From Dyella sp. BiH032 (GTDB lineage: Bacteria > Pseudomonadota > Gammaproteobacteria > Xanthomonadales > Rhodanobacteraceae), in assembly GCF_031954525.1 (NCBI RefSeq), contig NZ_CP134867.1, positions 1,178,001 to 1,242,000 on the forward strand: a stretch of DNA of 64,000 bases, written 5' to 3'. The stretch's first letter is position 1; each line of letters opens with the position of its first letter. Both the position numbers and the translations under genes were made by a program. Below, piece by piece: positions 9,028-18,125 of the stretch. Under the pieces are notes generated by a model that was given only the letters and a program-made list of their open reading frames with translations, was not told the DNA's origin and did not search any database.

Positions 9028-9489
9028 TCAACGGCAGCTGGTAGGCAGATACCTCAGCGGAATGCCGTTGATATTGCGGTTAGTGCAGACCCATTTGATC
9101 GAGCCTTCGGCAGAGATGGCCGAGAAACCCAACTGAAGCCCGTCGATCGCCTTGTTGGCCACTTGGCCACCGGTGCTGTCGAAGTGCACGAGGATGTTGC
9201 CGGGTCGGGTGATGGCATCCACGCGGCTGACATACTTTCCGGCATAGGCATTGGCCGGCAGTAGCCCGGCTTGGGCCTCCGTGGTCGGGAACTGGCCGGT
9301 GTTGTCGTAGTACTCGGTGACGGACAACTTCGGTCCTTCCGCCAGGGAAAAACCCTCCATCACCTGAGTTCGGATCAGGTAGTCCTGGTAAGCCGGAATC
9401 GCGATGGCGGCGAGAATCGCGATGATCGCAACCACGATCATCAACTCAATAAGCGTGAAACCCGCCTGCCGGCCGGTGCTGGAATGCAT
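9028..9489 (-). CDS. Type IV pilin (PilA/PilE-like major or minor pilin)
   Basis: 153 residues. A short positively charged leader ([10 protein letters not shown]) is followed by the prepilin peptidase site [21 protein letters not shown]. This includes Glu5 and the hydrophobic N-terminal helix that packs the filament. Two cysteines near the C terminus (WVCTNRN... and PTSCR) can close the D-loop disulfide typical of type IVa pilins. AGGGGG upstream on the minus strand is the ribosome-binding site and fixes the start. The gene stands alone, without other pil genes. Whether it is the main filament subunit or an accessory pilin cannot be told here. Confidence 0.92.
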
Positions 9490-9779
9490 TCTCGTATGCC
9501 CCCTGGCATGAAAGAACGGCGAAATGGGATGGGCTTGCCGTACGCCAGCCGCCAATGCCAGCGGGCCTACGGAACGGCGAGGAAGTTGCATCTGAGCATA
9601 TCGGCTGGAGCCGTTTCCACCTTGAGTGCGTTACAGGAGCGGAAAAGATGCCGTAGTCCTCACTTCCGCGTTGGAGGGCATTCGCCATGTCGGTCGTCGC
9701 TGCTGGTCATCACGTCAAAGTCGGCTAGATGGGAGCGACCTATTAGCGCAGATCATCCGACCCGGCGCGGATGTCGTGG

Positions 9780-10190
9780 TCAAGTTTTAGTAGACACCCG
9801 ACTAAGGGATATCACGCGGCGGCTTTTCTCGTAGTCGGCTGGAGATCGATAGCCGAGAGTGGAGTGCAGCCAGTGGGTATTGTAGAAGGCGACGATGTAG
9901 TGGGTGATGTCGGCGATGGCTTCGTTCGCGTTGGCGTAGCGGCGCTGCCGGACGTGCTCCATTTTCAGATTCAGGAAGAACCGCTCCATCACCGCGTTAT
10001 CCCAGCAGTTGCCCTTGCGGCTCATGCTGGCGACCAGTCCGCAGCGTGCCAGCATGTCGCGATGCGCCTGGCTGGCACACTGACTGCCGCGATCGGTGTG
10101 CATAATCAGTCCAGGCGGGGGCTGGCGCAGATGGTCTTGGTCTGAGCCGTAGCGACCATCGGCGCGGTCGTGCGGCGGATATCGGTGGCG
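9780..10190 (-). pseudogene. IS3-family transposase (OrfB) remnant 1
   Basis: From about 10127 down to 9780 the minus strand encodes the end of an IS3-family integrase-type transposase. HTDRGSQCAS, SMSRKGNCWDNAVMERFF (with the catalytic-region Glu), FYNTHWLHSTLGYRSPADYE are all typical. Upstream, to about 10190, the match continues only in another frame, so the gene is broken by a frameshift. The N-terminal half and OrfA are missing. A segment at about 9774-9800 (GGTCAAGTTTTAGTAGACAC) may be the terminal repeat. The element is dead and marks the left edge of the RHS island. Confidence 0.85.
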
Positions 10191-10360
10191 GTTCGCATGG
10201 CTTGCCTGCGGGCGGTAACAACCGGGTGAAAACTTGCGGTCCATCGAGTTTTCTTGCGACAAGCATACGAACCTGCTTACTCTTTTAAAGCGCAAAGGTC
10301 CTGGGGGGGCGGGGACCGGCGCCACGCGTTCGCCGGGACGCAGCCAAAAACGGGGGAATC

Positions 10361-13300
10361 ATGACGAGTCTTTGCGGGCGCGGAGTGCGCCGTGCGGTGC
10401 TGGCTGTTGTTCTGCTGCTTTCCTCTCCGGCCGTCTGGTCGCAAGCCGGTTCGGTCTCGCTGGAGGATGAATACAAGAAGCTGATCCGCGTCAATGAGGA
10501 CGTCCAGCCGCTGGGCGAAACACCCTTTGGCGAGCAGATCAACCTCTACGACGGCAGCATCTCCTTCACCCAGACCGACGTCAGCCAGAAAGGCAATGGC
10601 CTGCCGCTGCTGTTCACGCGCACCTTCCGCGCGGCCGATACCAGCAGTCCTTCGTCGAGGGCGATCGAATTCGCCAGCAACGCGTTCGTCGACTGGGACC
10701 TGTCGGTGCCGAAGATCGAAACGCTATCGGCGGAGGTAAAGTTCACCGACAGCCAGGGACATCAGGTCGACCTGTGGACGTTCATCGGCGAGAACGACCG
10801 ATGCACGCGGTTCAAGAGCGGCGGTACCATCTTCGTGCCGACCAAGCCAGGGCAGGAGCCGGTCGATTGGGAACCCAATGTCTGGTGGCACGGCTATCAG
10901 CTGGAGATTCCCGGTGAAGGGAGCCAGGACCTGCTGCTGCGCGATGCAGGCAACAACCACATCCCGCAAATGCAGCTCCCGGACGGCTCTCCGATGGTCT
11001 TTCCGGTCGTTACGAAAAAGCACTGGGCCATCGGTTGCCTGCCCGCCACGGACAACGGCCAGCCGGGCGAAGGTTTCCTGGCCGTCGCGCCAGACGGCAA
11101 CAAATACTACTTGACCTGGCTGATCTACAAGGACGCGCCGGCGATCGCCCATCCGGGCGGCGGTGCCCTGAAGCGTCGCGTGGCTTCCATGCTGGCGCGG
11201 CGCGTCGAGGACCGCTTCGGCAACTGGCTGCAGTACAGCTACGACGCGCAGGGGAATCTGACCACGATCGATGCCAGCGATGGCCGTCAGCTCACCATCG
11301 CCTATGAGGCCTGGCAGGATCCTTCTGGCTATTACCCGGTCGGCTACCGCGCGACGTCCGCCACGCTGCAGACCGCGGCAGGTGCCCGCCAATGGAGGTA
11401 TTTCTACAGTGCCGATACCAGCGCGCCGCGCCTGATCACGGTGCAGCAACCCGACGGCAGCGCGTGGTCGCTGGACATGGCCGGGATCGTAGGGCCACAA
11501 AGCGAGCTGGTCTCTTTCGACGGCTGTCTTATCGCGACCTGGCCTCAGAACGCCACGTCCAGTACGGCGACCTTGCGTCATCCGTCCGGATTGACCGGCA
11601 GGTTCACCCTTACCTCGACGATCCGCGGACGCTCCTACGTACCCAAGCGCTGCATTCTCGAGCGGGGTGTCTATTACATCGGCATTCCCTCGCTGTTCGT
11701 TTCGGCGTCGTTGACGCAGAAGGTCTTTTCCGGCGCCGGCATGCCCGACCGTACCTGGAACTATGCGTATTCTCCTTCCAACGAGAGCTGGGCCCAGGAT
11801 TGCGGCAGCTGCGGGGACTCGGTATGGACGGATGTCACCGATCCGGACGGACGGGGTACCCGCTACACCTTCAGCAATCGCTTCGATCGAACCGAGAGCC
11901 TGCTGAAACGGGTCGACTACTACGGCGGCGGCGTCGGCACGGATCTTCAGCGCTCAGAAATCAGCAGCTATGCGACTGCCGGCCCGTGGCCGGCGGTGCT
12001 GGGCGACAACCTGCAGTTCGGCATGAACTTCGATCAGTCCGGCACGCTGACGCCGGTGGGCGAGCGCACGCTGCAGCAGGACCAGGGCGATGCCTACACC
12101 TGGCGCGTCACCGGCTTCGACGGGTTCGCCCGGCCCATCCAGGTGCAGCGCTTCAGCAACGTGTCGGGCCAGGCCGCGGTGGAGGAAAAGACCTCCTTGC
12201 TCGACGACTACCCGCATTGGGTGCTCGGTCTGCCGCTGCAAGTGGACAACCTAACGACGGGCGAGACGGTCAGCCGGAACGAATACGATCTTGGCCGGGT
12301 CACGCTGAGCAGGCGCTGGCATTTCGGCCAGCTGGCCATGAGCTATGCCTTCAATGCGCAAGGCCAGCTGGCCTCCTTCACGGATGGCAACACCCACACG
12401 ACCACGCTGAGCGACTACAAGCGTGGCATTCCGCAGACCATCGGCTATCCCGATGGCACCAGTCAGCACCTGGCGGTGGATGATTTCGGACAAATCGCCA
12501 GCATTACGGACCAGGCCGGCAGCACCACGAGTTATGGTTACGACGCCGTGGGGCGCGTCACGTCCATCGTTTATCCAGCGGGCGATGAAGCCGCATGGCA
12601 TCCGAAGACTTTCGCCTACGATTTTGTGCTGACCACGGAGCGCGGCATCGGCGGCGGCCACTGGCGGCGCACGGTAAGCAAAGGGGATTCGCGCGTCGTT
12701 TCCTATTTCGATGTGATGTTGCGGCCCGTCCTGGTCGATACCTACATCGCCAGCGACGGTAATTCGCATATCAGCGCCCGCTCGGATTACGACTGGAAAG
12801 GTCAGAAGACCTTCGCCTCGTATCCGGTCGCCGGTCAGCCCGATCTCGGCGCGATCGGGAGTGGTGTCTTCACCGCCTACGATGCGCTGGGCCGTGTGAC
12901 CAGGATGCAGCAATCCGCAGAAACTGGGTCGCTGACGACGAGCACCGCGTACCTGCCTGGAGCGGGGCGGCAGGTCACCGATGCCAAGGGCTACGTGACC
13001 ACCACGCGCTACCAGGTCTTCGACCAGCCGAACTACGACGCGGTGGTCTCGGTCCAGGCACCGGAAGGCGTGAGTCAGTCCATCGTGCGCGATCTCTACG
13101 GTAACCCCACGGCGATACGGCAGTGGGGCTCGGCCAACGGTTATGTGGCCGACGTGACCAAACAGCTCTACTACGACACATATCACCGCCTTTGCCGTAC
13201 CTGGGAACCGGAAAGCGGAAGCGAAGTCACGGCGTACGATGCCGCCAACAACGTCGATTGGACCGCCTCGGGCCTTTCGATCACCGGCACGGCCTGCGGC

Positions 13301-15751
13301 CAGGAGCAGGTGGCGGAAGCCGCCAAGACGCGCCGGACCTACGACCCGATGAACCGGCTAGAGAAGCTGCTGCCGCCGACGGGAACACAGAGCACACTGT
13401 ATACCTACGATGCGCTCGGCAACGTCAAGCAGGCCGATTCGGGTATCACCAGCTGGGTTGGCGAGCGCAACAAGCTGGGGCAGCTGACCGCCGAGACGCT
13501 GAGCGTCATCGGTAACGGAAGCAATGTCATTCGATATGCCCACGACAGTTATGGGAACTTGCGTTCCATCGCCTATCCTGATGCCACGGTGGTCGATTAC
13601 GCGCCCGATCCCTTGGGGCGCCCCACGCAGGCGGGCAGTTACGCCACCGGCGTCAGTTATCACCCGGACGGCGAGATTGCCCATTTCGTCTATGGCAACG
13701 GCGCCGAGTATCTGGCGCAGAAGAACGCCCGGCAGCTCATCAGCAACTTCACCTATGCGAAAGGCGGGACGATCAATCTCAGCGAAGACTTCGCCTACGA
13801 CAACAACGGAAACATCAGCAGCATCACCGACCTCGCGGGCGGGCCGCGGAGCAAATCGTTCGGTTACGACGCACTCAATCGCCTGGCCAGCGCGCGGGCG
13901 GATAGACTGTGGGGCACGGAAACCTACCAGTACGACCCTCTAAACAACATTCGCAACCGAGGTGGTGCGGGGCAATCGCTAGATTATAACTACGACGCCA
14001 CCAATCGTCTGACGGGCATCACCCAGGCGGGCAACGCGGTGATGACGCTGGGGTACGACGCGCGCGGCAACGTCACCAGCAGGAATGGCAATACGCTGGT
14101 GTTCGACGAAAAGAACCAGCTGACCAGCATCCCGGGCTATGACACCTATGCCTACGATGCCGCCGGACGCCGCGTGCTGAAGGCTCCCGCCAACGGCAGC
14201 AACTCGACCTATTACTTCTATACCCAGGAAGGTCGCCTGCTGTATCAGTACGATGCGACGACGACCAAGACCACGGATTACATCTATCTCGGCAAGAAGC
14301 TGATCGCTCGCGCCGAGGGATCGACGTCCAGAATCCTCGGCCATGTCGATGGCGTGAGCGTCGACGCAAGCGGCAATAACGCCAGCATTACCGGATGGGC
14401 ATGCTCATCGGGCTTGGCGCAATCCATCGCGGTCCATCTGTACGTCGGTGGCCCCTATGGCACGGGCACGATGATCGGCGGGTACACGGCGAACGCGGCC
14501 AGTGAAGCGGCGGTGGCTACGGCTTGTGGCGTCTCGTCGGGCAGCTACCGGTTCGTCATTCCCCTGACCAGTGCCACGCGTTCGCAGTACGCAGGGCAGA
14601 AGATCTATATCCATGGCATTTCTCCCGTGGGTAACGACAACAGCCTGGTGGCCGACTCCGGGGTCTACAGTGTCCCGGCGCTGCCGACGGCGCCGGCCGC
14701 GCCGGCGAGCATCAGTGCCGACAAACTGGCCGATCTGAGTCGCATCAATGTGAGCTGGTCGAGCTCGTCGGGTACGACGAGTTACAAGCTGCAGAAGCAG
14801 TTCAATGGCGGGGCATGGGCAGATGCCTATAGCGGCGCAGCGACCGCGTATGCTATCGACAATCCGGCGGATGGCAGTTACGTCTTCCAGGCCCAGGCGT
14901 GCAATGCCGTCGGATGCAGCGCCTGGGCGGCATCGGGGGCGGTGACCATTGCGCATATTCCGCCGACCCCGGCGTGGATCACTGTGCCGGCGTCCAGCAA
15001 TGGCCCGGTAAGCGTGTCCTGGGCGTCGAGCGCTTATGCCACGTATTACGACCTCTATCAGTCCATCAATGGCGGCGGCTGGACGAGGGTATACAGCGGT
15101 CCTTCGACCAATGTCACCGTGAACGCCACGGTATCCGGCAGCTATACCTTCTTCGTCGCGGCCGGCAACACGAATGGCTGGTCCGGCAACCTTGCCGGCA
15201 GCAGCGCCGTGGCAGTAACGATTCCGCCAAGCGGTTCCCCCTCGATCAGCGTACCGGTAAGCAGCAACTCGGGTGCTTATACGGTCAGCTGGAGCGGCGT
15301 TGGCGGAGCTGCCAGCTATACGCTGGTGGAGCAGGCGAACGGTGGAGGATGGATGACCGTCCAGGCCAACGGGAACACGAGCTGGAGCACTTCCGGCAAG
15401 GGCAATGGCACGTACGGCTACATGGTGCAGGCCTGTAACGCGGGAGGCTGCGGCCCATGGAGCGGAGTGGGGTCGATCAGCGTGGCCCTGGTTCCACCCA
15501 TGCCGACCAATGTGCAAGCCATCGACAGCTTCCCCAGTCCCAAGTCCGAGCGCCTGACCATCAAGTGGAACGCTTCGCCCGGTGCGACGAGCTACCAGGT
15601 CATGCGGATCAACACGGGAGAAATTCTTCAGGCGGGTACGGCGACGTCGCTGGTAGTGGAGAACGGGGCCGTGGGGGAGATTCCGCTCTATGGCTATCAG
15701 GTACGGGCTTGTAATGCCGTGGGATGCTCAGAATGGGCGTATGCGTACTGA
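10361..15751 (+). CDS. Secreted YD-repeat (RHS-type) protein with C-terminal fibronectin-like domains
   Basis: 1796 residues with a signal peptide ending near VWSQA. Residues about 280-1320 carry at least fifteen YD-type repeats such as YDAVGRVTSI, YDALGNVKQ and YDARGNVTS, which in relatives wrap into a hollow shell. A GWAC-containing module spans about 1326-1440, then four fibronectin type III-like units repeat a VxACNAVGCSxW closing motif to the end. The usual RHS-associated core (DPxGxxR...GRFLSxDP) is absent; it is encoded by the next gene. GGGGGAA precedes the ATG. A role as a surface or secreted scaffold for a toxin is inferred from the family. Confidence 0.88.
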   Translation: MTSLCGRGVRRAVLAVVLLLSSPAVWSQAGSVSLEDEYKKLIRVNEDVQPLGETPFGEQINLYDGSISFTQTDVSQKGNGLPLLFTRTFRAADTSSPSSRAIEFASNAFVDWDLSVPKIETLSAEVKFTDSQGHQVDLWTFIGENDRCTRFKSGGTIFVPTKPGQEPVDWEPNVWWHGYQLEIPGEGSQDLLLRDAGNNHIPQMQLPDGSPMVFPVVTKKHWAIGCLPATDNGQPGEGFLAVAPDGNKYYLTWLIYKDAPAIAHPGGGALKRRVASMLARRVEDRFGNWLQYSYDAQGNLTTIDASDGRQLTIAYEAWQDPSGYYPVGYRATSATLQTAAGARQWRYFYSADTSAPRLITVQQPDGSAWSLDMAGIVGPQSELVSFDGCLIATWPQNATSSTATLRHPSGLTGRFTLTSTIRGRSYVPKRCILERGVYYIGIPSLFVSASLTQKVFSGAGMPDRTWNYAYSPSNESWAQDCGSCGDSVWTDVTDPDGRGTRYTFSNRFDRTESLLKRVDYYGGGVGTDLQRSEISSYATAGPWPAVLGDNLQFGMNFDQSGTLTPVGERTLQQDQGDAYTWRVTGFDGFARPIQVQRFSNVSGQAAVEEKTSLLDDYPHWVLGLPLQVDNLTTGETVSRNEYDLGRVTLSRRWHFGQLAMSYAFNAQGQLASFTDGNTHTTTLSDYKRGIPQTIGYPDGTSQHLAVDDFGQIASITDQAGSTTSYGYDAVGRVTSIVYPAGDEAAWHPKTFAYDFVLTTERGIGGGHWRRTVSKGDSRVVSYFDVMLRPVLVDTYIASDGNSHISARSDYDWKGQKTFASYPVAGQPDLGAIGSGVFTAYDALGRVTRMQQSAETGSLTTSTAYLPGAGRQVTDAKGYVTTTRYQVFDQPNYDAVVSVQAPEGVSQSIVRDLYGNPTAIRQWGSANGYVADVTKQLYYDTYHRLCRTWEPESGSEVTAYDAANNVDWTASGLSITGTACGQEQVAEAAKTRRTYDPMNRLEKLLPPTGTQSTLYTYDALGNVKQADSGITSWVGERNKLGQLTAETLSVIGNGSNVIRYAHDSYGNLRSIAYPDATVVDYAPDPLGRPTQAGSYATGVSYHPDGEIAHFVYGNGAEYLAQKNARQLISNFTYAKGGTINLSEDFAYDNNGNISSITDLAGGPRSKSFGYDALNRLASARADRLWGTETYQYDPLNNIRNRGGAGQSLDYNYDATNRLTGITQAGNAVMTLGYDARGNVTSRNGNTLVFDEKNQLTSIPGYDTYAYDAAGRRVLKAPANGSNSTYYFYTQEGRLLYQYDATTTKTTDYIYLGKKLIARAEGSTSRILGHVDGVSVDASGNNASITGWACSSGLAQSIAVHLYVGGPYGTGTMIGGYTANAASEAAVATACGVSSGSYRFVIPLTSATRSQYAGQKIYIHGISPVGNDNSLVADSGVYSVPALPTAPAAPASISADKLADLSRINVSWSSSSGTTSYKLQKQFNGGAWADAYSGAATAYAIDNPADGSYVFQAQACNAVGCSAWAASGAVTIAHIPPTPAWITVPASSNGPVSVSWASSAYATYYDLYQSINGGGWTRVYSGPSTNVTVNATVSGSYTFFVAAGNTNGWSGNLAGSSAVAVTIPPSGSPSISVPVSSNSGAYTVSWSGVGGAASYTLVEQANGGGWMTVQANGNTSWSTSGKGNGTYGYMVQACNAGGCGPWSGVGSISVALVPPMPTNVQAIDSFPSPKSERLTIKWNASPGATSYQVMRINTGEILQAGTATSLVVENGAVGEIPLYGYQVRACNAVGCSEWAYAY

Positions 15752-15763
15752 CCGGGAGCGAAC

Positions 15764-16660
15764 ATGAGCGGCAAAAGTGGATGGTTGGTTCTTTCGCTGC
15801 TTCTCTGGCATGGGATTTCTTCGGCAGGTACGGTGACCTATGTGTATGTGGATCATCAGGGTACTGTCCTGGCAGAGGCCGATGCTGGCGGAAACCTGGT
15901 CGCTCAGTTCGACTATCGTCCTTATGGGCGAGCTGTCGATGGCAGCTCGCAGCTTCCATCTGGGCCTGGTTACACCGGTCACGTCAATGACCGGGAAACC
16001 GGGCTGGTCTATATGCAGGCCAGGTATTACATGACGGATGGACAGTTCTTGAGCGTCGATCCCCTCGGAGTTGAGCCAGGAAACTTGTTCGGCTTCAGCC
16101 GCTATTCCTATGCGAGAGGCAATCCAGTCAATTACATCGATCCTGATGGAAGGCAGGCTAATCAAGCCATGAAGGGTCTCTATTTCTGGCAGCAAATGTC
16201 AGAGCTGAGCGGCCGGCTTGATAACGTCGCTGAAGCCGCTAACAAGAAGATGGAGAAGGTTGATATAAAGATAGACGTAGCAATTGCCCGAGGTCCTGGC
16301 GTCCGGATTCAGCAGAGTCTGCTTCATGGGGAAGGAAGCATTACCTACTTGCCCGTGGCATTCGGTCAGAACGTGAGTGTTGATCTTCAGCCAAGGAAGG
16401 GATTCGTCTTTGATTTTGCGAAAAATTCTTCGGCGAAGAGTACGGATTATTCATTCGGAGGAGGTCCGTCGTTCGAGTATGGCGAAGTGCTACACGCCGG
16501 TCTCGATATCGACTTCAATCCTGGCAAGGGCGGATCATTTACTGCGACTCCGAAGGCTGGCCTTGGATATGGCACGTTTCACTCCTACACTCCTGAAGTA
16601 AAGGTCTTGGAATGGAACTTGTCCGAGAGTTCGGATAATCGTCCTCAAGGAAGCCTGTGA
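15764..16660 (+). CDS. Secreted RHS-associated core protein with unknown C-terminal tip
   Basis: 298 residues with its own signal peptide (MSGKSGWLVLSLLLWHGISSAG). Residues 22 to about 130 are a compact RHS-associated core: VDHQGTVLAEAD, FDYRPYGRA, GYTGHVNDRETGLVYMQARYY, GQFLSVDPLG, YARGNPVNYIDPDG. This is the part the upstream giant lacks. After PDGRQ about 165 residues form a tip I do not recognise; it is glycine-rich with alternating hydrophobics toward the end. The start lies 12 bases after the previous stop behind GGGAG. The tip DNA is clearly lower in GC than its surroundings, as in exchangeable toxin tips. A toxin role is inference. Confidence 0.8.
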   Translation: MSGKSGWLVLSLLLWHGISSAGTVTYVYVDHQGTVLAEADAGGNLVAQFDYRPYGRAVDGSSQLPSGPGYTGHVNDRETGLVYMQARYYMTDGQFLSVDPLGVEPGNLFGFSRYSYARGNPVNYIDPDGRQANQAMKGLYFWQQMSELSGRLDNVAEAANKKMEKVDIKIDVAIARGPGVRIQQSLLHGEGSITYLPVAFGQNVSVDLQPRKGFVFDFAKNSSAKSTDYSFGGGPSFEYGEVLHAGLDIDFNPGKGGSFTATPKAGLGYGTFHSYTPEVKVLEWNLSESSDNRPQGSL

Positions 16661-16935
16661 TGGAAGCCAAATACTCCATAGCCATCGCGGCAGTGTATGC
16701 AACCATCTATGTTTTTGGTGCAAGAGCGCTGTATTCCAGGCTTGGCAGTGTGGATCCGGATCTTTTCTCGGGACTTCCCGCAAAGGATATGTTCTCGGTT
16801 TCCAGAATGATTTTTGACGAACGTCTTCCGAAAGAGGGTTATCCGGTCTGGTTCAAAGTGGCGATGCGGGGGCTGCGAATCATGCTTTATCTTTACCCGC
16901 TGGTTTTGATCTGGGCCTTTTTTGTTATCTCGTAG
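16660..16935 (+). CDS. Small two-helix membrane protein, candidate immunity partner of the RHS tip
   Basis: 91 residues, unrecognised. It has hydrophobic helices at about residues 5-24 and 70-91 around a polar segment with several charged residues. Its ATG overlaps the stop of the RHS-core gene by one base (TGATG), so translation is coupled. Small membrane proteins placed directly after polymorphic-toxin tips are often immunity proteins. Here that role rests only on position, coupling and low GC. A GTG one codon upstream is an alternative start. Confidence 0.6.
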   Translation: MEAKYSIAIAAVYATIYVFGARALYSRLGSVDPDLFSGLPAKDMFSVSRMIFDERLPKEGYPVWFKVAMRGLRIMLYLYPLVLIWAFFVIS

Positions 16936-17253: not shown

Positions 17254-17556
17254 TCATCGCGCGTGTCGAGGCCATAAGCTGCCCCGCCAAGCAGACACTT
17301 CAAAAGTAGAACTGCTGGTGGCTTGTTGACGGTACTCGGCGGGCGTGATGTCGCCGAGCGATTCGTGGGGGCGTTGCTCGTTGTAGTCGAGCATCCACCA
17401 GTAGGCCGCCTCACGGACATCTTCCAGTCGGGCAAACAGGTGCTGGTCGGGGATCTCCTCGCGGAAGGTACGGTTGAAACGTTCGATGTAGGCGTTCTGG
17501 TTGGGCTTTCCGGGCTGGATGCACTGAATGGCCACGCCGCTGGCCTTGGCCCACGC
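17254..17556 (-). pseudogene. IS3-family transposase (OrfB) remnant 2
   Basis: The minus strand encodes the last 100 or so residues of an IS3-family transposase: IQPGKPNQNAYIERFNRTFREE (catalytic Glu region), DYNEQRPHESLGDITPAEYRQQ. This differs in sequence from the remnant at 9780, so it comes from another IS group. The upstream part is lost: the match ends abruptly at the tandem repeat starting at 17552. The frame continues but reads only repeat-encoded sequence. It marks the right edge of the RHS island. Confidence 0.88.
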
Positions 17557-17607
17557 AAGCACGCAAGCACGCAAGCACGCAAGCACGCGAGTGCGCGAGT
17601 GCGCGCA
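17552..17607. repeat. Short tandem repeat, 8-bp unit
   Basis: Four perfect copies of CACGCAAG (17552-17583) are followed by three diverged units (CACGCGAG, TGCGCGAG, TGCGCGCA). The repeat starts exactly where the transposase homology stops. The unit count could vary by slippage. Confidence 0.9.
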
Positions 17608-18125
17608 CATGGCATGCGTGCACCTACAGACAACCAAAATCGATTTTGCTAGTGTCGATCCCGTTGCCCGCGTAGCGGTTCCAGACGTGTCTCGGGCAAC
17701 CATGGCAGCAGTGCCATGAGAGCGCGGGCCAAGGGTGCGCCAACACCCCTGACCCGCTGACCATCACCAACTATCAGAGAGTTGATCATGGCTACCCCAG
17801 ATCATACGGCACCCGCACGCCCGCCGATCCCCTCGGCGACACCCCCACCGCTCATCCGGGCCGTCTGCACCCCTCGCAGGCACGGTTGAAGAACCGCGGC
17901 CTAAGTGGTTTTCGCAAGGATTGTCCTTAGCCGTGCAACCCGGCGCGTCGCCTTGCGCGACGGCGGAACGCACTGACGCCGCAGCCCACTTCCTCAATCA
18001 GCCGCCCGGCGCCCAGGCATGGGCCGTCGGTGAACCCTCGAGTCCGTGTGATCGCGGCACGTCGTGCTGTCTGCGGCGTGCCGTTCTCGGAACGGGGAGC
18101 GGCATTTCATGACAAGGAGTTACCC
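17608..18125. other. Intergenic region with hairpin and possible short ORF
   Basis: About 500 bases with no recognised gene. It holds a perfect hairpin CATGGCA-gcag-TGCCATG at 17701-17718. A 33-codon ORF (ATG at 17788, stop 17889) lies behind a weak AGAG. The encoded peptide is proline-rich and matches nothing I know. The region may be a leader for the gene at 18126. Confidence 0.35.

Follow-up and report, generated by a model that had tools for sequence, protein, structure and literature searches.

Known Rhs effectors are accounted for by a single chain that forms a shell around the toxin it carries. A locus of Dyella sp. BiH032 raises the question of what to make of such a toxin when the shell and the part that closes it are encoded by two genes, each with a leader of its own. 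The locus lies in a stretch of 64,000 nucleotides (the window; contig NZ_CP134867.1, positions 1,178,001 to 1,242,000, numbered from 1 below) and consists of a large gene for a YD-repeat protein of 1796 residues and, with 12 bases between its stop codon and the next ATG, a small gene for a protein of 298 residues that carries the RHS-associated core. We conclude that the pair probably encodes one Rhs polymorphic toxin made as two separately exported chains, which would dock outside the cytoplasm. The argument starts from what is directly observed, namely the anatomy of the two proteins, the cut point, the conservation of the split, the co-occurrence of the parts, the diversity of the tips and a conserved gene beside this type of tip.

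Two separate genes, a large protein without a core, the 12-base gap and a ribosome-binding site belonging to the small gene had all been put forward in an original prediction made from the nucleotide letters, and were borne out by the open reading frames (ORFs), by profile matches and by a plausible binding site, GGGAG. In the large protein, YD/RHS repeats were matched by PF05593 (E 5.7e-33) and TIGR01643 (E 6.5e-19), and the profile search found no RHS-associated core there. Its tail scores above the cut-off for PF08329 (ChitinaseA_N), and the tail of a paralogue (locus L014) matches PF00041 (fn3) with 29 bits against a cut-off of 25, so that 'fibronectin-like' is a fair label for this region. 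A Pfam search of the large protein at E 0.01 gave no match to PAAR or VgrG families. The core is found on the small protein, where TIGR03696 matches residues 51–129 with 68.1 bits (cut-off 32.5); family searches matched its tip to no known family. Both leaders read, by eye and by a hydropathy rule, as Sec signal peptides, in agreement with the earlier view that they are intact. Because shell and core occupy two ORFs and not one chain, we file the pair as a variant of the Rhs polymorphic toxins.

At this locus the two genes are in the same frame with a single TGA between them, as might be left by a sequencing error, a frameshift or a stop artefact that had split one gene. Such an artefact is scarcely credible given how often the split recurs. 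The genome holds five TIGR03696 matches, three in short frames (302, 332 and 356 residues) and two in long ones (1538 and 1621 residues), and the three short frames each adjoin a long YD frame; the two further split loci encode proteins of 1952 and 328 residues, with overlapping gene ends, and of 1937 and 355 residues. A search for homologues of the small protein, confined to proteins of 0.55–1.75 times its length at E 0.001, returned 1937, and all counts over 120 homologues given below refer to the 120 matches listed; the named ones among these are mostly from Rhodanobacter, Dyella and Frateuria. Scanning GTDB genomes turned up 268 related places, from which 77 distinct loci were kept, and in these and the five loci of the genome itself 95 ORFs match the subfamily core model, 92 of them no longer than 600 residues. 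Among 78 YD proteins, a collected set and not a random sample, 47 are split from their core and 21 are fused to it, 3 have a short core more than 1 kb away and 7 have no core on the fetched stretch, the last group taking in genes close to a contig end (L161, L177) and one case in which the core frame happened to be lengthened at its upstream end (L103). The genes of the 47 split pairs, drawn from many assemblies, lie −784 to +253 nt apart, overlaps coming out too large because each gene was begun at its earliest possible start codon, and share a frame in only 6 of the 47. With these pairs and three loci in one genome, the 12-base split is neither chance nor a simple frameshift, as the original prediction had also held.

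The junction itself argues the same way, since the cut is marked by a signal peptide, which fused relatives lack at that place. In a test for a Met and a hydrophobic stretch (by the hydropathy rule) directly before the core, short cores that have a large gene or a fragment of one linked to them passed in 57 of 64 cases (1 not assessable), unlinked short cores in 41 of 50 (5 not assessable) and fused chains in none of 17; L049, L118 and L176 missed it on the Met part only. Short cores are present in another family of the same order as well, and among 12 further loci, all but one from genomes of that family, four (L180, L184, L186 with two short cores, and L189) have a short core immediately downstream of a core-less large gene. 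At least two families of the order therefore share the split.

Relatives that retain a single chain show where the cut falls. In L111 (Luteibacter, 1632 residues) the large protein aligns to residues 18–1342 (43% identity) and the small one to 1335–1458 (48%), and in L122 (1607 residues) the two align to 1–1315 (42%) and 1294–1401 (60%). Two longer single chains, L123 (2188 residues) and L124 (2184 residues), carry a fibronectin-like tail between shell and core. From these alignments three forms can be distinguished: shell-core-tip, shell-FN3-core-tip, and shell-FN3 accompanied by a separate signal peptide-core-tip protein. When solved shells of Rhs, Tc and teneurin proteins are searched with the profile of the small core, the match falls on approximately their last 110 residues, up to the cleavage glycine (for example 5kis_B 579–688, 4igl_B 586–689, 6l7i_G 553–663, 6h6g 2047–2156). 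A model of residues 160–1340 of the large protein (mean predicted local distance difference test score, pLDDT, 82.7; predicted template modelling score, pTM, 0.75) had TcdB2-TccC3 as its best match in Foldseek, with a TM-score of 0.67 normalised by query length. Its alignments end at residue 576 of 5kis_B, 573 of 4igl_B, 546 of 6l7i_G and 2038 of 6h6g, these ends being in entry numbering and the core starts in sequence positions, so that a shift of a few residues between them is possible. The modelling suggests that the two proteins would add up to a single shell including the region that closes it, without overlap and with little left uncovered. Since the single-chain matches are adjacent and the end of the shell model meets the start of the core, the two genes appear to be a single RHS toxin severed some 110 residues ahead of the site of aspartyl cleavage and given a signal peptide at that point. 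The split or fused label was traced on a tree of 75 shells (46 split and 21 fused rows, 8 in neither group) and takes 5 changes there, of which well-supported branches require 4; read without a fixed root, the tree is compatible with gain and with loss of the split.

Other arrangements of these parts were also seen. In a second split form (L130:2628-4145 on the minus strand, and L178) the core protein has about 500 residues with the core from residue 168, and the extra region between leader and core resembles the region of the large protein between shell and FN3 tail. Cassettes with only an FN3 tail and a short signal peptide-core-tip gene occur at L127:6440-9483, L047:8953-10918 and L058:3680-5124, and L118 (Stenotrophomonas maltophilia SJTL3) has a short signal peptide-core-tip gene and no large gene within 10 kb.

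In RhsA, 14 repeats make up the C-terminal conserved region, which is described as sealing the cocoon by an inward spiral, and aspartates 1324 and 1346 are described as required for cleavage at PxxxxDPxG W/L/F (PMC8765631). The matching aspartates, proline and glycine are kept in all 120 small homologues listed. Directly behind DPxG, at residue 130, 108 of these have R or K, as do most of the fused relatives (21 in all). The small chain therefore carries the aspartyl dyad, and may cleave itself after DPDG.

The two parts also travel together. Co-occurrence was scored in 147 genomes of the family, with short cores counted from a table of core matches that runs down to 138 bits (134 rows; 16 further listed rows of 124–136 bits, 10 of them in frames of at most 600 residues, were left out, as were unlisted rows) and large N-domains from 480 or 280 bits. 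At 480 bits, 44 genomes have both, 7 the short core only, 1 the large N-domain only and 95 neither (51 with a short core, 45 with a large N-domain; Fisher p 7e-29, ignoring kinship of the hosts); at 280 bits the corresponding table is 48/3/16/80, with fused relatives among the 16. A short core lies within 6.5 kb downstream of 52 of the 67 large N-domains of at least 480 bits. Distances between shells correlate with those between cores across 45 split pairs (r 0.53 in a Mantel test, a value that none of 2000 permutations reached), as they do across 21 fused chains (r 0.75), both values again ignoring kinship. The original prediction would have been undermined by short cores commonly found in genomes without a large partner, and these proved uncommon.

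Several points weigh against two exported chains that dock. Three of the 51 genomes with a short core lack a large N-domain of at least 280 bits (6 of 56 when the 10 weaker rows are included), and both the distance correlation and the co-occurrence may reflect common descent of the hosts. The expectation that short cores would always follow a core-less YD/FN3 gene failed, as 57 of 127 lie beside a large gene and 70 do not, at least 11 of the unpaired plus-strand cores starting less than 5 kb from a contig start. With R or K after DPxG where the RhsA consensus has W, L or F, cleavage is uncertain. When the small protein was modelled alone, residues 53–138 had a pLDDT under 50 and much of the tip formed long beta strands of higher confidence; the low score of the lone core speaks for the two-chain reading, though it may stem from the shallow alignment of 20 sequences. 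Finally, entry of a tip into a shell folded elsewhere is hard to explain. The tip may instead stay outside, as teneurin tips are described as doing (PMC8765631).

Some of these points suit a different account, in which the small proteins are free-standing secreted toxins with the core as a pro-domain or self-processing module, the large YD/FN3 protein is an independent surface or secreted adhesin, and the linkage is a relic of descent from a fused gene. The 70 short cores away from any large gene would fit it, as would the signal peptides retained by unlinked copies (41 of 50) and the short ORF directly downstream of some unlinked copies among the loci listed, a possible immunity gene. Against this, 44 of the 45 genomes with a strong large gene also have a short core, 66 of the 70 unlinked copies share a genome with a large N-domain of at least 280 bits, the core is the part that closes a shell, and both halves have been retained over much divergence. 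We consider this account unlikely, and assembly of the two parts outside the cytoplasm, the best-supported reading, remains the most likely.

The unlinked copies bear on a further question, whether one shell may take more than one partner. In 23 of the 44 two-part genomes short cores outnumber large genes, and over all 44 there are 119 against 66. Within genomes, short genes whose signal peptide and core match by at least 75% in DNA have tips that share nothing detectable (34 of 34 pairs), while the 500 nt upstream are up to 99.5% identical. Tips among the 120 homologues listed match GH-E, HNH, Tox-REase-7, NucA/NucB, Ntox24 and peptidase families, with one or two members each, and most match no family; PF25023 (TEN_YD-shell), which marks the shell only, matches 60 of the 120. 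It is conceivable, if somewhat short of probable, that the toxin is armed in trans, one Sec-exported YD/FN3 shell being shared by several exported cap-plus-warhead proteins, linked and unlinked, and assembled with them outside the cytoplasm.

The same pairs, alike in signal peptide, core and upstream FN3 tail and unlike in their tips, could instead mark the short genes as a mainly silent reservoir, like classical orphan Rhs tips, that is recombined into the main locus so that only the copy beside the large gene matters; some extra copies with just the FN3-tail remnant of a large gene (L047, L058, L127) also point that way. We think this very improbable, given that 41 of 50 unlinked copies begin with a start codon of their own and a signal peptide, and for the linked copies a reservoir is in any case compatible with the two-chain toxin.

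The gene behind the tip adds a further element. Downstream of the small gene, and overlapping its stop codon, lies a gene for a small membrane protein. We inspected the region downstream of seven other small genes, six of which match the 298-residue protein through the tip. In five of these six (L044, L045, L050, L092 and the first L046 gene) a membrane protein of 92–103 residues follows that aligns by eye with the local one; in the sixth, L086, a different membrane protein follows, and behind the second L046 gene lies another small membrane protein, left out of the alignment. These observations fit the pairing of a toxin with its immunity protein, and the local membrane protein is a likely immunity protein.

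Taken as one toxin in two chains, the system would work as follows. The large chain would provide a hollow YD shell with a fibronectin-like tail, and the small chain the shell-closing core with its aspartyl dyad and a polymorphic toxin tip. Export of both chains is most likely by their own Sec signal peptides, each chain crossing the inner membrane separately. The large chain has 17 cysteines, several nearly invariant among relatives, and the small chain has none; conservation of these cysteines fits a shell folded outside the cytoplasm. There the core would dock at the open end of the shell, and the particle may then be released or displayed, with the type II secretin encoded in the genome (485 bits) a candidate for the outer-membrane step. 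The tip would act on neighbouring cells, with the small membrane protein conferring immunity.

Features of the two-gene locus, in window positions
Feature	Position	Strand	Basis
Large gene, 1796 residues: signal peptide, YD shell and fibronectin-like tail, without RHS core	10361..15751	+	ORF and profile matches; conserved in relatives
Putative Sec signal peptide of large protein, about residues 1–29	10361..10447	+	sequence reading; similar leaders in most of 34 relatives
N-terminal region and YD/RHS shell of large protein, ending near residue 1311–1320	10448..14320	+	profiles; model of residues 160–1340 aligned to solved Rhs/Tc/teneurin shells
Fibronectin/Ig-like tail of large protein, about residues 1441–1796	14681..15748	+	PF08329 above cut-off; PF00041 above cut-off in paralogue L014
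Plausible ribosome-binding site (GGGAG) of small gene	15754..15758	+	sequence
Small gene, 298 residues: signal peptide, RHS core and variable tip	15764..16660	+	ORF, TIGR03696, homologues
Putative Sec signal peptide of small protein, about residues 1–21	15764..15826	+	sequence; same kind of leader in homologues
RHS-associated core, shell-closing part	15830..16150	+	TIGR03696; PDB matches
Aspartyl dyad of small core, D99 and D126	16058-16060; 16139-16141	+	both Asp in 120/120 homologues listed
Variable tip, presumed toxin, predicted long beta strands	16151..16657	+	structure model; without known family
Small membrane protein, likely immunity, 91 residues from ATG 16660 (92 from GTG 16657), overlapping the small-gene stop	16660..16935	+	sequence; relatives behind same-type tips

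The nearest precedent would seem to be the B and C subunits of Tc toxins, cut at another point. In the Tc BC component (YenB with YenC1-3, TcdB2-TccC3) an RHS shell is likewise made of two chains with polymorphic C-terminal cargo, and YenB takes C subunits from distinct loci (PMC11067744). The original prediction's statement that known RHS toxins keep the core in the same chain is thus too strong as a universal: the Tc shell is already two chains, cut elsewhere. In Tc toxins the C chain accounts for about 690 residues, shell and protease together, whereas the second Dyella chain has only the last ~110 residues of the shell, and both Dyella chains have signal peptides. The SpvB domain had no match in the genome (the control was positive in one genome), and PF18276, the TcA-TcB binding domain, had none either, its controls being equally without a match.

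Effectors of the type VI secretion system such as RhsA, Tse5, Tse15, Tre23 and RhsP share the YD shell, the closing core with its aspartyl dyad and the polymorphic tip, and the shell model aligns to their structures. They are single chains, however, whereas the Dyella pair has no PAAR match, is predicted to be exported by signal peptides and has R/K in place of W/L/F after DPxG. Bacterial teneurin-like and WapA-type proteins are Sec-exported YD-shell proteins with polymorphic C-termini, described as single chains (PMC13018210; PMC12704120); the likeness is drawn from these features, and the domain order of teneurin-like proteins is FN-plug, NHL, YD shell.

Orphan Rhs-CT cassettes offer a different likeness, with extra tips near or far from the main gene, common upstream sequence and unrelated tips. 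Classical cassettes of this kind are not known to have a start codon or export signal of their own, whereas 41 of the 50 unlinked copies considered here start with Met and a hydrophobic leader. A survey of polymorphic toxins mentions standalone toxin cassettes and, in the part covered, describes no separately exported core (PMC3482391). No paper on a separately exported shell and core/tip was found in the open-licence PubMed Central literature, subscription papers being outside the scope of that search. The locus appears to be a known kind of toxin in a two-gene form that, within the literature searched, is undescribed.

Two integrase-core (rve) fragments, IS3-like by sequence reading, flank the locus in the same orientation (9783-10325 and 17257-17703, both on the minus strand). 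The upstream one stops only 36 bases before the ATG of the large gene, so that the promoter of this gene may sit in or beyond it. Just outside this fragment lies an ORF (9028-9591, minus strand) with a type IV pilin-like leader (GFTLIELM).

If the toxin is indeed made as two chains, a shell and a cap exported apart must meet outside the cytoplasm, and an RHS shell would be closable after export; one delivery scaffold could then serve several warheads. Were it armed in trans, unlinked tips could be put to use without first recombining into the main gene, unlike classical orphan tips. The split also gives meaning to many database proteins of about 300 residues named 'RHS repeat-associated core domain-containing protein', and the single-chain relatives with and without a fibronectin tail make it directly testable.
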